DNA of 64,000 nucleotides, taken from Fodinicola acaciae (GTDB taxonomy: Bacteria > Actinomycetota > Actinomycetes > Mycobacteriales > HKI-0501). Below the pieces are notes generated by a model. The model saw only the letters and a program-made list of their open reading frames with translations, was not told where the DNA came from and ran no database searches. The stretch spans positions 1,178,001 to 1,242,000 of the forward strand of contig NZ_WOTN01000003.1 in the NCBI RefSeq assembly GCF_010993745.1, read 5' to 3'. Both the position numbers and the translations under genes were made by a program. This document shows positions 654-43,678 of the stretch, in pieces. The stretch's first letter is position 1; each line of letters begins with the position of its first letter.

Positions 654-702
654 CCGCATGGCCGCCATGCTTGCGTTGGATGCAAGCATGGTGGCCATGC
701 GG
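654..702. repeat. Palindrome family 1, copy 1 (likely bidirectional terminator)
   Basis: Arms of 21 bp at 654-674 and 682-702 enclose a 7-nt loop; the only imperfect pair is a G-T wobble. It sits between the convergent stops of the partial gene (649) and metB (717). Near-identical copies occur at 11856-11902, 26141-26187 and 43632-43678, all beside stop codons. There is no T-tract. A terminator role is inferred from position. Confidence 0.75.
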
Positions 703-4732: not shown

Positions 4733-4763
4733 CGACCCGGTTCTCACGACTCTGTGACCGGCG

Positions 4764-4870
4764 AGGCTCGACAGCCGATGACGTTGGTCCGCGAAGGTCG
4801 CCGACTCGTACGCGTCAGCCGAGCCTAGCCACAGCGTCGCCGATCAGACTCGACCGAGCAAGCGACGCGG
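4764..4870. repeat. Direct repeat unit, copy 1
   Basis: This ~107-bp unit begins AGGCTCGACAGCCGATGAC and ends GAGCAAGCGACGCGG. It matches the unit at 4960-5065 at most positions, with differences such as GTCGCC against GTCATC that occur twice in parallel within each copy. Confidence 0.7.
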
Positions 4871-4876
4871 TTTTCA

Positions 4877-4933
4877 CGAACTCGACGTTCTGGTCGTTTT
4901 CCAACGTTAAAAAGGACCAAAACGTCGAGTTCG
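4877..4933. repeat. Long hairpin, type 2, copy 1
   Basis: The 13-bp arms CGAACTCGACGTT (4877-4889) and AACGTCGAGTTCG (4921-4933) are perfectly complementary. After one mismatch the stem continues with TGGTC/GACCA, giving a stem of about 19 bp around an AT-rich loop. The same arm sequence forms a hairpin at 29430-29483. No open gene is interrupted. Confidence 0.65.
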
Positions 4934-4959
4934 CGCGCCGGCCGGCTCCACAGTCGCCA

Positions 4960-5065
4960 AGGCTCGACAGCCGATGACCTTGGTCCGCGAAGGTCATCGA
5001 CCCACACGCGCCAGCCGAGCCAGCCACAGCGTCATCGACCAGACTCGACCGAGCAAGCTACACGG
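4960..5065. repeat. Direct repeat unit, copy 2
   Basis: Second copy of the 4764-4870 unit, offset by 196 bp. It contains the perfect 9-bp inverted repeat GATGACCTT / AAGGTCATC around GGTCCGCG, which is disrupted in copy 1. Confidence 0.7.
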
Positions 5066-5205
5066 CCTTCGCGAGCTGACCTCACCGCGCGCGCCAAACT
5101 GTCGGTCCTCGGAATTGGCACCGGTGTGACAAGCCGCGATGGTCTGGGGGGCCGGTGACCGTACTCGGCGGTAAGGTGGCGGCCTGACGGCGGAGAGGTG
5201 AGGCG

Positions 5206-11855: not shown

Positions 11856-11902
11856 CGCATGGCCACCATGCGTGCGTTCGACGCACGCATGGTGGCCATG
11901 CG
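11856..11902. repeat. Palindrome family 1, copy 2
   Basis: Perfect 22-bp arms (11856-11877 and 11881-11902) enclose the loop TCG. It lies 4 bp past the stop of the secreted protein gene (11907) and upstream of the deaminase-family gene, so it follows one minus-strand gene and precedes another. Confidence 0.8.
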
Positions 11903-26104: not shown

Positions 26105-26140
26105 CCGCCCGCAGGCCTGCGGACTTTGCGGCGGATTGTT

Positions 26141-26187
26141 CGCATGGCCACCATGCGTGCACTGGACGCACGCATGGTGGCCATGCG
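26141..26187. repeat. Palindrome family 1, copy 3
   Basis: Perfect 20-bp arms (26141-26160 and 26168-26187) flank a 7-nt loop ACTGGAC. It lies between the convergent stops of the phospholipase D-like gene (26104) and the next minus-strand gene (26191), three bases from the latter. Confidence 0.8.
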
Positions 26188-26190
26188 GAC

Positions 26191-28018: not shown

Positions 28019-28866
28019 CCGGCCGCCGGCTTTCCGGGATATCGCTGATGTTGGGCTCGGCGGTGTCCTTCAGCACGGTCGGCCTTTTCACCCGCGCGGT
28101 GACCGCGCCGCTGCCGGACGTCCTGTTCATCCGCGGCCTGTCCGGCGCCGCCGCGATCTGGCTCGTGGCAAGGCTTTTCACGACGCAGCGATGGACCGAC
28201 CGGGGCAACTTCTCCTGGCCGGCGCTGGCCGTCGCCGCGCTTTTCACGCTCGGCATGACCAGCCTGGTCGTCGCGTACCGGATCGGCTCGGTCGTCAACG
28301 TCTCGGTCGTCTATGCCACCATCCCGCTGGTCATCGGCCTCTTCCAGATGCTGTTCCGCGGTCGCCGGCCGTCCTGGATTTTCTGGCTGTGCGGCGGATC
28401 CGTGGTCGCCGGCGTCGCGATCATGACCGGCCGCGGCGTGAGTGCCGGCGATGTTCTCGGCATGGCGCTGGCGTTTTTCATGACCCTCTGCGTCGCGGCC
28501 ATCATCCTCGTCTCGCGGGCTCATCCGGACACGCCGATGCTGCCGGCGTCGGCTTTCGCCTGCGTCGCGAGCAGCCTCGCCGCGGCTCCTTTCGTCACCA
28601 GTTTCGCCTTTGGCTGGAACGAAATCCTGCTGTGTACGCTGTTCGGTGTCGTGACGTTGGGACTCGGGCGGGTTTTCCTGGTGCTCGGCTCCAGCCGCGT
28701 ACCATCACGGGACGCCGCACTCATCGACGTACTCGACGCGCCGATCACACCGCTGTGGACCTGGGCCATCCTCAACGAGGCACCGACCATCCCCGGCGCC
28801 ATCGGCGGCGGTGTCGTCATACTCGCCGTCGCCGCCGGCATCCGCTTCGACCGCAACCAATCCTGA
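28015..28866 (+). CDS. EamA/DMT-family transporter
   Basis: The 283-residue membrane protein has ten hydrophobic segments arranged as two EamA repeats (about 5-135 and 150-280). A FIRGLSGAAA motif near residue 38 and APITPLWTW near residue 243 are typical of the drug/metabolite transporter superfamily. It probably exports a small metabolite. Translation is coupled to the CGNR regulator gene. A 12-bp perfect palindrome GGGACCGGTCCC follows the stop at 28870-28881. Confidence 0.83.
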   Translation: MTGRRLSGISLMLGSAVSFSTVGLFTRAVTAPLPDVLFIRGLSGAAAIWLVARLFTTQRWTDRGNFSWPALAVAALFTLGMTSLVVAYRIGSVVNVSVVYATIPLVIGLFQMLFRGRRPSWIFWLCGGSVVAGVAIMTGRGVSAGDVLGMALAFFMTLCVAAIILVSRAHPDTPMLPASAFACVASSLAAAPFVTSFAFGWNEILLCTLFGVVTLGLGRVFLVLGSSRVPSRDAALIDVLDAPITPLWTWAILNEAPTIPGAIGGGVVILAVAAGIRFDRNQS

Positions 28867-28931: not shown

Positions 28932-29273
28932 ATGACTGAGCAGACACCGACGCCGGATCCGACACCGGCCGGGCCGCGTCCGATCCATGGAACGCCGAAA
29001 TCTCAGGGAATCTGGAGCATCGTGCTCGGCGTCGGCCTGTGCATGTGCGGCGTCAGTGCCGCCAACTCGCGCACCGGTGGCCCGCTCAGTGCTTTGTTGC
29101 CTCTGCTGATCTTCACCGGGCCACTCATCGGTGTCGCTCTGGCGATAGCCGGCATCGTCGGCGCGAGGAAAGCCGGCATGTCCAACACCCTGCCGACTGT
29201 CGCGCTGGTGATCTCGGCGGCTTTGTTGCTGATCTACACTGCGACCGGAGTGGCTCTCGTGGCCACCAGATAG
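28932..29273 (+). CDS. Small membrane protein (two to three TM segments)
   Basis: The 113-residue protein has a Pro/Thr-rich cytosolic start (about residues 1-25) and three hydrophobic segments (about 28-45, 50-75 and 88-110). GAGGGACC lies just before the ATG. It resembles actinobacterial DUF4190-like small membrane proteins in layout, but I cannot assign a family firmly. It is followed by the MITE-like element. Confidence 0.6.
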   Translation: MTEQTPTPDPTPAGPRPIHGTPKSQGIWSIVLGVGLCMCGVSAANSRTGGPLSALLPLLIFTGPLIGVALAIAGIVGARKAGMSNTLPTVALVISAALLLIYTATGVALVATR

Positions 29274-29324
29274 GAGCCGCGTCGCGTGGACGCCCAGCCT
29301 GGTCGCAAAGCGTCCTTACGCGCG

Positions 29325-29663
29325 CTGGACGCCAATGCCAGGAACTTTAAGGTCGTCCGGATCGCTTCTCCTGGTTTGGTGTGACTCGTAGTGACCGGGT
29401 TGCCGGTGAGAACGCGCCTTGGGTTAGCGAACTCGACGTTGTCGACTGTTCCTTCGGCGTGTCGAGGTCCGCAACGTCGAGTTGGTGAGTCCGGAACTCG
29501 GCGGGCGGGACTGTCGGTGACCACGCACGGGATGCTCCGTTGCCATCACCAGACGGCCCGACGACCTAACAATGAGGGCATCTACCAGCGCTTCCGTATT
29601 ACGCAACCGACGACAAACCGACCTAACCGAGGCCGACATCAAGTTCCTGGCATTGGCGCTGGA
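29325..29663. mobile_element. MITE-like element with 18-bp terminal inverted repeats
   Basis: Perfect 18-bp inverted repeats CGCCAATGCCAGGAACTT (29330-29347) and its complement (29641-29658) bound a 329-bp non-coding segment. The pentamer CTGGA occurs directly outside each end (29325-29329 and 29659-29663), as expected for a target duplication. Beyond the right CTGGA the sequence matches the right arm of family 1 palindromes, whose loop is CTGGA. There is no transposase, so any movement must have been in trans. Confidence 0.55.
29430..29483. repeat. Long hairpin, type 2, copy 2
   Basis: AACTCGACGTTG (29430-29441) and CAACGTCGAGTT (29472-29483) are perfect complements, with further TCGAC/GTCGA pairing inside. 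The arms match those of the hairpin at 4877-4933. It lies near the centre of the MITE-like segment. Confidence 0.6.
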
Positions 29664-29705
29664 CGCACACATGGGGCCATGCGCGTTTCGGCCGTACGAC
29701 GTGGG

Positions 29706-30497
29706 TCAGTTGTCGGAGTTGGCCATCGTGACCGGCTCGTCGGCGATCGGCGGCCGCGGCTCAGGTACGGACACGTTGGCGGCCTGGTCGATGAGCTTGC
29801 GAAACAGTTCGAGATACGCCGCGCCGCGGTCGGTCGCGGTCATCCGGTCGATCAGCCGCTCCGCGTCCAGGAGCCGCTTCGCGTCCGCCGCCTGTGCGGC
29901 GTAGTGGTTGAGTTGGCTGAGCGCCTGCGAAAACACGCTCAGATATGTGCGGTGCACGAAGAAACCCAAGGTGCCCCCGACCGAGCCCATCGCGAGCAGC
30001 ACGGTGCGCGTCTCGGTGTCGGTGACGATGAGACCGGCCGAGAACCAGGCGAGCATCCACCCGAAGCACACACCCATGGCGGTTTGCGACGACCGGAAAG
30101 AAGCGCGAGCCTGATGTGTCGCGATGTCGTGATAATGATCCAGCTGTTGCCGGCTGCGTTCGATCCGCGCGGGCAGATCGCCTCCGGTTTCGGTCCGGCC
30201 GTACGGCGCGTGCCGATAGTCGGAATAGTCGCTGTGCACGGCCTCGTCGAGCTCGCGAAGACCCGTTCGTTGCTTGTGGATCACGACCACCACGGCGACG
30301 CATCCGCCGATCGACAGCAGCAGGAACGCACCGAGCCAGGCGGCCGGCGGGATGGCGGAAAGCCTGCCGGCGAACGCGCCGGGAAGCGCGGCGAACAGGC
30401 TTCCCGCGGCCAGCGCGGCGCCACCTGTCGCCGCTATTGACGCGCAGATGGCTAACCATCTGACGATATTGGACCGGCGCGGTTGGGTTGGCGCCAT
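29706..30497 (-). CDS. Membrane protein, possibly with a TRADD-N-associated-type membrane domain
   Basis: The 263-residue protein has two N-terminal hydrophobic segments (about 13-40 and 50-75), a cytosolic helix region, then another pair (about 150-200, FRSSQTAMGVCFGWMLAWFSAGL...) followed by a helical tail. The YHDIATHQARASFRSSQTAM and HRTYLSVFSQALSQLNHY pattern resembles the membrane module described beside bacterial TRADD-N-like domains in predicted conflict or signalling systems. That identification is from memory and tentative. The ATG at 30495 has GAGG upstream. The next gene upstream is another small membrane protein. Confidence 0.55.
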   Translation of the reverse strand: MAPTQPRRSNIVRWLAICASIAATGGAALAAGSLFAALPGAFAGRLSAIPPAAWLGAFLLLSIGGCVAVVVVIHKQRTGLRELDEAVHSDYSDYRHAPYGRTETGGDLPARIERSRQQLDHYHDIATHQARASFRSSQTAMGVCFGWMLAWFSAGLIVTDTETRTVLLAMGSVGGTLGFFVHRTYLSVFSQALSQLNHYAAQAADAKRLLDAERLIDRMTATDRGAAYLELFRKLIDQAANVSVPEPRPPIADEPVTMANSDN

Positions 30498-30661
30498 TGG
30501 GCTTTCCTCTTTTCGATCGTGTGAGGGCTCCCCGTACCCAACCGGAGAGTTTGCACCATCGTGGCGAGGTCTTCCAAATTCATGCGGATGCGATCCGCGC
30601 ATGCGCCAGGCGACCAGTTGTTTTTACTTTTACGTTGCCTGCCAAGGATTTCTTGACACGG

Positions 30662-35593: not shown

Positions 35594-35654
35594 GTTGTTG
35601 ATCACGGGATTCTCACGCACACCAAAGGTGCGTGAGAATGCCGTGATCAACAAC
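35594..35654. terminator. 27-bp stem hairpin downstream of the HNH pseudogene
   Basis: Arms 35594-35620 and 35628-35654 pair with a single mismatch around the 7-nt loop ACCAAAG. It lies in the 372-bp gap between the pseudogene and the convergent beta-family gene. No other copy is seen in the window. Confidence 0.7.
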
Positions 35655-43631: not shown

Positions 43632-43678
43632 CGCATGGCCACCATGCGTGCGCTGGACGCACGCATGGTGGCCATGCG
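43632..43678. repeat. Palindrome family 1, copy 4
   Basis: Perfect 21-bp arms (43632-43652 and 43658-43678) surround the loop CTGGA. It lies between the convergent stops of the MFS gene (43619) and ppx (43684), five bases from the latter. Confidence 0.8.

Follow-up and report, generated by a model that had tools for sequence, protein, structure and literature searches.

The window analysed here, a 64-kb stretch of an 8.86 Mb host genome (G000:C3:1178001-1242000), carries a 323-bp segment which very probably is a MITE of a clade within the IS4 subgroup of insertion sequences (IS), presumably moved by a transposase of the type encoded by the full-length relatives L165 and L241 into the centre of a palindrome that would have been recognised by way of its dyad symmetry. 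This reading has direct support in the ends of the segment, its target duplication, the other copies, the autonomous relatives with the same ends, the length of the stagger and the type of target. The original prediction had proposed an insertion with target duplication into a hairpin loop, and this is supported by the copies, the full-length relatives and the uninterrupted palindromes at sites corresponding to one insertion (L230), with the duplication corrected to 11 bp.

In the mechanism which we propose, the MITE would be a short passenger with IS4-subgroup ends that encodes no transposase; an enzyme of the L165/L241 kind, presumably acting in trans, would excise it and join it with an 11-bp stagger into a long intergenic palindrome at its centre, the 11-bp tip then being duplicated by repair. 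The target would be recognised through dyad symmetry, in the form either of an extruded hairpin tip or of a symmetric RNNYYNRRNKY core with inverted arms, the latter of which would be read by a transposase dimer. The palindromes may act as 3'-end signals, which would make an insertion into them nearly harmless.

Boundaries and coding content of the element

The element and its edges were placed as follows.

29333-29655, no strand assigned: MITE-like element of 323 bp, delimited by terminal repeats, an 11-bp direct repeat and relatives in the same genome
29333-29347, + strand: left terminal inverted repeat CAATGCCAGGAACTT, 0 mismatches against the right repeat and the same as the ends of the L165 and L241 IS
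29641-29655, - strand: right terminal inverted repeat, exact pair of the left repeat
29322-29332, + strand: palindrome tip GCGCTGGACGC as duplicated at the target, left copy of 11 bp, 11/11 match
29656-29666, + strand: right copy of the 11-bp target duplication, 11/11 match

The segment had been described as bounded by perfect 18-bp terminal inverted repeats, with a 5-bp target duplication, CTGGA, at its outer edges. The inverted repeats (29330-29347 and 29641-29658) are indeed exact over 18 bp, and a search of the window for the 18-mer that tolerated as many as 3 mismatches gave 2 matches where 0.01 would be expected, a count of 2 being reached by 0/100 shuffles; chance origin of the pair is negligible. 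The pentamer CTGGA is likewise directly repeated (29325-29329 and 29659-29663), but it is the middle of an 11-bp repeat which constitutes the entire tip of the local palindrome, the flanks having only 1 matching base when read as 10 or 12 bp as opposed to 11/11 at 11 bp. Since the flank duplication is 11 bp long, the first 3 bases of each 18-mer (CGC/GCG) belong to the target and the terminal repeat proper is 15 bp; the target tip is partly symmetric (GCG...CGC), so that three target bases pass for inverted-repeat sequence. The element accordingly measures 323 bp rather than the 329 bp first assigned to it. Its description as non-coding was retained: the ORFs of at least 80 aa which overlap it all extend beyond its edges, a Pfam scan of four overlapping ORFs returned no match, an Rfam search of 29000-30000 at E 0.5 returned no family, and the element is apparently non-coding on this evidence.

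The interrupted palindrome and its neighbouring genes

The flanking arms, the adjacent genes and a palindrome inside the element are listed below.

29301-29324, + strand: palindrome arm to the left of the insertion, closest in the catalogue to GGTAGTAAGGCCTCCTTACGTGCG, score 14 against a null maximum of 13 of 1500
29664-29687, - strand: palindrome arm to the right of the insertion, family 1-like and closest to ACCCGCATGGCCACCATGCGTGCG, score 17 against the catalogued arms
28932-29273, + strand: probable left gene, 113 aa, start chosen by the analyst, no Pfam match, reads toward the element
29706-30602, - strand: right gene, 298 aa, no Pfam match, reads toward the element
29430-29483, no strand assigned: internal imperfect palindrome AACTCGACGTTGTCGAC...AACGTCGAGTT, arms 29430-29446 and 29467-29483, score 11 against a maximum of 9 in 60 shuffles

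Palindromes whose tip is GTGCG-YYNRR-CGCAC are numerous in the host genome, and their arms fall into several classes; a pattern with a 6-base loop in place of the 5-base loop yielded nothing useful. The arm catalogue comprised 36 palindromes (38 tips were fetched from the first places of the listing, L095 and L096 being left out), among which, compared arm by arm, L101, L107 and L109 are perfect over 22 bases, and the null consisted of 1500 random 24-mers of the window, the best of which scored 13. The left arm in the window is closest to the right arm of L084 (14) and the right arm to a family 1 arm (17). By this comparison both flanks are palindrome arms, of different arm classes. The assignment of the right flank to a family 1 palindrome, as its right arm, is upheld by a score above the null maximum, while that of a decayed family 1 palindrome as a whole applies to the right side alone, the left arm being of another class and the two arms failing to pair with one another (score 6, shuffle p 0.55).

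That the two arms are of different classes would suit a rearrangement (inversion or split) of an ancestral palindrome in which no transposition took place, yet we consider this extremely improbable in view of the related copies elsewhere, the exact 11-bp direct repeat and the autonomous relatives with identical ends; the related suggestion that the 18-mers are parts of one split ancestral palindrome is very unlikely as other copies exist and the tip is direct, not inverted. Recombination between two copies may have left the chimeric arms as its trace, but this assumption does not seem necessary, as the host genome also has solo palindromes whose two arms are unlike; those which join two unlike arm classes without interruption include L076, L078, L084, L104 and L105.

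The gap that holds the element is convergent with either choice of left gene, as the crude gene caller which was employed skipped 28932-29273 and took the next + strand gene, ending at 28866. According to this caller, none of 16 palindromes lies between divergent genes (9 tandem, 7 convergent) compared with 10/46 divergent among neighbours in the window, and 2/21 insertions for which both neighbours were called lie in divergent gaps (L032 and L165).

The middle of the element (29427-29489) resembles a dispersed palindromic repeat, AACTCGACGTTGTCGAC...AACGTCGAGTT, which is present in many places in the host genome and in G001, one other genome of the genus, C2:87295 and C4:679164 in the host and C21:13819 and C45:25743 in G001 being examples; similar stretches stand by themselves in both genomes.

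Further copies in the host genome

Other copies in the genome had been named as a check of the insertion, and a DNA search detected at least seven further copies or fragments, two of which have both ends (L032 and L033); one-ended copies are L031, L034, L036, L046 and L047. Most of the further copies have an end that abuts a palindrome arm. The tips around L032 are GCATCCGGCGC and GCACCCGGCGC and those around L033 GCACCAGGCGC and GCACGAGGCGC, agreeing at 10/11 positions each, and both elements are situated inside another arm class, CGCAGGGACTCCC, whose arms pair with scores of 17 and 15 (p 0.0003). When compared with the catalogued arms, 9 of the 11 testable flanks, from 8 copies, beat all 1500 random controls; the flank of L034 is marginal (p 0.075), and L046 has an end with no palindrome around it by the arm-catalogue test. 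The host copies have inner blocks in common and differ by absent stretches.

As a palindrome half directly precedes an end in several loci (e.g. L047 and L036), arms and ends appear to travel together, which would be expected if the arms belonged to the element, that is, if there were one long transposon with hairpin ends of which the solo palindromes are internal deletions. We regard this as highly improbable: the tip between arm and end is direct rather than inverted (most clearly in the window copy, L033, L230, L234, L165 and L256), the palindromes around these same ends differ between two lineages, and an uninterrupted palindrome occupies the orthologous L230 place in six relatives. The model of a long unit with terminal inverted repeats that include the arms was rejected on the orientation of the tip and the sites without insertion.

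Two further arrangements were observed in the host genome. At about 1450-1900 of L114 (C3:441469), a family 1 left arm is followed by the end-like sequence TTATGCCAGGAACTT and then by a long G/T-rich stretch; this is possibly a further diverged copy of the element. A fragment of a MITE of the window type is adjoined at L035 (C1:3050960-3051050) by a repeat of another kind, the ends of which are GGGGTCTGTTTCGAAGTCCCAC; this suggests nested or clustered insertions.

Autonomous relatives and their transposase

The ends of the window element resemble those of IS4. A search for PF13006 in 200 genomes produced matches in 24, and in the genome of the window 0 matches were obtained among the 24 of 30 candidates scored, while the L165 protein had none there at E 1e-30 among the 3 of 14 candidates scored; judged by these searches, the transposase driving the window MITE may have been lost from its genome, never have been present or have been missed.

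A full-length transposon with the same ends, which the original prediction had put forward as a thing to look for, was found in two genomes of the same order but of another family (G054 and G513), the ends being identical to the 15-mers of the window element and the lengths 1636 and 1655 bp. The copy in G054 (L165) has the ends CAATGCCAGGAACTTAAGG and CAATGCCAGGAACTTAGG and an 11-bp repeat, ACGCTTAAGGT, and occupies the middle of CGTGAAGGCCTCCTTCCCTAC-GCTTAAG-GTAGGGAAGGAGGCCTTCACG, a palindrome read with a single copy of the repeat. G513 contains six full IS copies (L241-L244, L255 and L256) that are 99.9-100% identical in DNA and have the same 15-bp ends. Direct repeats are 11 bp in L165, L241-L244 and L256, and 10 bp in L255.

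The 513-aa protein of L165 matches the Nterm_IS4 (PF13006) and DDE_Tnp_1 (PF01609) domains above cut-off and is classed by an NCBIfam equivalog as a transposase of the IS4 family, and that of L241 matches the same two Pfam families above cut-off. The two transposases are 67% identical. Against other IS4-family proteins, L241 reaches at most 38% over long alignments among those fetched (short fragments up to 44%) and L165 31-44% over partial or long alignments (44% over 242 residues), and in a tree of 27 rows L165 and L241 form one branch with a support of 100/100 and a length of 1.31.

The IS4 subgroup is characterised by ends of the pattern -AATR--------WTW----, a length of 1400-1650 bp, direct repeats of 10-13 bp and the YREK motif, with strong target specificity in some members (PMC2266710). 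L165 and L241 resemble it in these features and differ as a long separate branch: the motif Y(2)R(3)E(6)K is present in both (YARRWVAETGIRELK and YARRWTAETGIKEIK), their ends CAATGCCAGGAACTTAAG and CAATGCCAGGAACTTAGG fit the pattern, the 1636-bp length is inside the typical range and the 1655-bp length 5 bp above it. DDE domains, YREK motif, ends and repeat length all place L165 and L241 in the subgroup. The right end of the window element has one departure from the end pattern, a G at position 16. The host MITE is 323 bp long, possesses the 15-bp ends of L165/L241 and occurs in several copies with duplications (window, L032 and L033); in BLAST comparisons, host MITEs and IS have only stretches of less than 40 bp at their ends in common.

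The exact end pattern is present in 18 of 390 genomes of the relatives' family (16 in genus g33, one in g95 and one in g62), with 0 matches for a reversed control among the genomes listed, and in 3/150 sampled genomes of the order, namely that of the window and two of g33. In a plasmid collection, none of the 100 records obtained by tblastn with the L165 transposase reached 60% identity, and none of the 31 obtained by blastn with the L241 IS covered 80% of it. An exact end pattern with an internal GTC, searched across genome contigs, returned 5 matches in unrelated phyla that were judged by eye to be due to chance; this pattern could not detect L165, whose left end continues AAGGCTGG.

Target sites across thirty elements

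Thirty elements with both ends were compared, i.e. 20 MITEs and 7 IS copies from the relatives' family and 3 elements of the host; among 43 end matches in the relatives' family, an element was included only if the fetched DNA also contained its second end, and L246 (no true pair) and L216 (an ortholog of L210) were dropped from 32 rows. At a spacing of exactly 11 bp, 19/30 have at least 9 of 11 flanking bases matching and 11/30 do not. In fourteen elements the flanking arms pair with a p of about 0.0003, and 16/30 do not reach p 0.001: pairing is at p about 0.015-0.06 for L210, L220, L221, L229, L232 and L238, and no pairing was detected by the shuffle test for L205, L211, L214, L218, L222, L225, L227 and L255. 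The last of these is an IS copy whose repeat measures 10 bp and which has a palindrome arm at one flank but not at the other. Certain pairs of ends may be false, those of L214, L227 and L239 having 3 mismatches in the second end and that of L229 having 3 in the first. In the control, made up of 20 further elements of the IS4 family in the order (L162 among them), exact 10-bp duplications were present in 18/20 and arm pairing at p 0.001 in 0/20, with only L162 below 0.05 (p 0.011).

The duplicated 11-mers agree in base classes and not in bases, and as aligned sequences their loose consensus is RNNYYNRRNKY: R at position 1, YY at positions 4-5 and G/T at position 10 are found in 19/19, RR at positions 7-8 in 17/19 and 15/19, and Y at position 11 in 18/19, some sites repeating one 11-mer and the 19 thus not being independent targets. 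The constancy of R1, YY4-5 and G/T at 10 would be explained by a pure preference for this 11-bp sequence, which palindrome tips merely happen to carry, and elements outside palindromes (L205, L211 and L221) also largely fit the consensus. The consensus is so common in the 64-kb window (365 occurrences on one strand and 378 on the other) that it cannot alone direct an element to palindrome centres, and the pairing of arms in 14/30 elements as against 0/20 in the control argues in the same direction; we therefore hold a pure sequence preference to be unlikely. The arms look unlike between the two lineages (GCATGGCCACCATGC versus GTGAAGGCCTCC). Symmetry is thus the common factor of the targets, and what is read may also be a symmetric loose consensus within inverted arms.

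Sites without the insertion

Evidence on the order of events comes from L230 (G054), a 295-bp MITE which has ACCTTGAGAGT on both sides and lies between convergent frames. Of 80 genomes of the genus, 70 have a match to its left gene, and from these 70 genomes 30 loci were fetched, 19 with both genes (one being the filled site) and 11 lacking the right gene in the fetched DNA. Among the 18 relatives with both genes, six have an unbroken palindrome of the same kind with a single tip (L266, L267, L268, L271, L280 and L282), two have a different element in the same tip (L275 and L276) and nine have another palindrome or sequence; L278 is not resolvable. For this element family, insertion into a pre-existing palindrome is established from the L230 site. 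An empty site in a close strain had been suggested as a check; these six relatives provide it for L230, and none was found for the window copy itself in G001, a 74% complete genome in which the right neighbour gene had no match.

The different element noted above belongs to a second family with ends CAGGGTCCMGGCRAAGTCG, located in the same kind of tip in L275, L276 and L212/L262 (g33); L276 includes both of its ends, with flanks ACCTTGAGAGT and ACCCTGAAAGC. Transposons of different kinds apparently have these tips as a common hotspot. Among strains, the orthologous L230 site (L265-L283) is occupied by no fewer than three unlike palindromes (GTGAAGGCCTCC.., CATGAAGGCCCCC.. and GTGAGTGGTAA..), and palindromes at an orthologous gene end seem to replace one another.

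Relation to known systems

IS1397 is a REP-targeting insertion sequence which, like ISPpu9/10, ISPsy8 and ISPa11, is of another IS family, and IS1111 has a transposase of a different family. Insertion of an IS4-family element at the axis of a REP is already known from ISRm22 (subgroup IS4Sa) of Sinorhizobium meliloti, nine copies of which are reported in REP, at the axis of palindromy (PMC1525189); it is thus an IS4-family element that enters a palindrome axis, as elements of the window type do. As described there, ISRm22 is a full IS with 6-bp repeats, perfect in 6/9 copies, and one consensus REP, and this description sets it apart from the window clade with its 11-bp repeats, MITEs and several unlike palindromes. 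In the same text, ISPpu9/10, ISPsy8 and ISPa11 are REP-targeting IS, ISPsy8 being placed at the symmetry axis of a predicted hairpin, and are given 2-bp, 3-bp or no direct repeats as opposed to 11 bp in the window clade (PMC1525189). A mobile element inside a palindromic or miniature element is also represented by IS1111 in REP of QMITE2 in Coxiella burnetii and by the BOX/RUP/SPRITE nests of Streptococcus pneumoniae, and the accessible part of the review in question describes no MITE with the ends of a palindrome-targeting IS (PMC10969869). The literature searched contained nothing on the L165/L241 clade, its MITEs or the use of several unlike actinobacterial palindromes, nor any IS4-family element in actinobacterial palindromes, absences that one library cannot prove.

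These elements bear on the question of how the shape or symmetry of DNA, rather than its sequence, is recognised by a transposase. Here a single element family, in two bacterial families, enters the centres of palindromes that are alike in symmetry and little in sequence, and it represents a natural experiment in which the same ends and the same 11-bp staggered joining are combined with many hairpins and with orthologous sites lacking the insertion. The near-identical IS copies of G513, together with the many MITEs, offer a system in which to study how a transposon finds hairpins.

Palindromes inside the MITEs

An internal inverted repeat exceeds all 60 shuffles in 16/23 MITEs, with a score of at least 18 in 13, and that of the window element, with a score of 11, belongs to the weakest of these; in the two full IS types examined, internal repeats are only weak (scores 10 and 9). 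The 23 MITEs fall into five sequence clusters, with 16 MITEs in one of them, so that the 16 internal palindromes are not independent events, and the host cluster has only end stretches in common with the others. Several g33 MITEs have the internal tip GACTCAGAGTC or its complement GACTCTGAGTC, an 11-mer which is also duplicated around 4/6 of the G513 IS copies, and a solo palindrome of this kind is present at the L269 site.

We tentatively raise the possibility, itself rather doubtful, that the MITEs are passengers which swap terminators, entering the tip of a 3'-end hairpin and bringing a complete hairpin of the host type that replaces the broken terminator. If true, this would explain both the harmlessness of insertion and the replacement of palindromes at orthologous gene ends, and would make the MITEs carriers that spread palindromes; the layout of a palindrome within a MITE within a palindrome would be a testable route for hairpin replacement at gene ends.

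Other repeats in the window

Four family 1 palindromes are found in the window (654-702, 11856-11902, 26138-26190 and 43632-43678), those at 26138 and 43632 being called between convergent genes and that at 11856 as tandem. A near-perfect palindrome with 27-bp arms, GTTGTTGATCACGGGATTCTCACGCAC-ACCAAAG-..., is situated at 35594-35654 and is unlike family 1, and 4759-5077 is a tandem pair of units of about 195 bp (D2 and D4) that are 84-87% identical.
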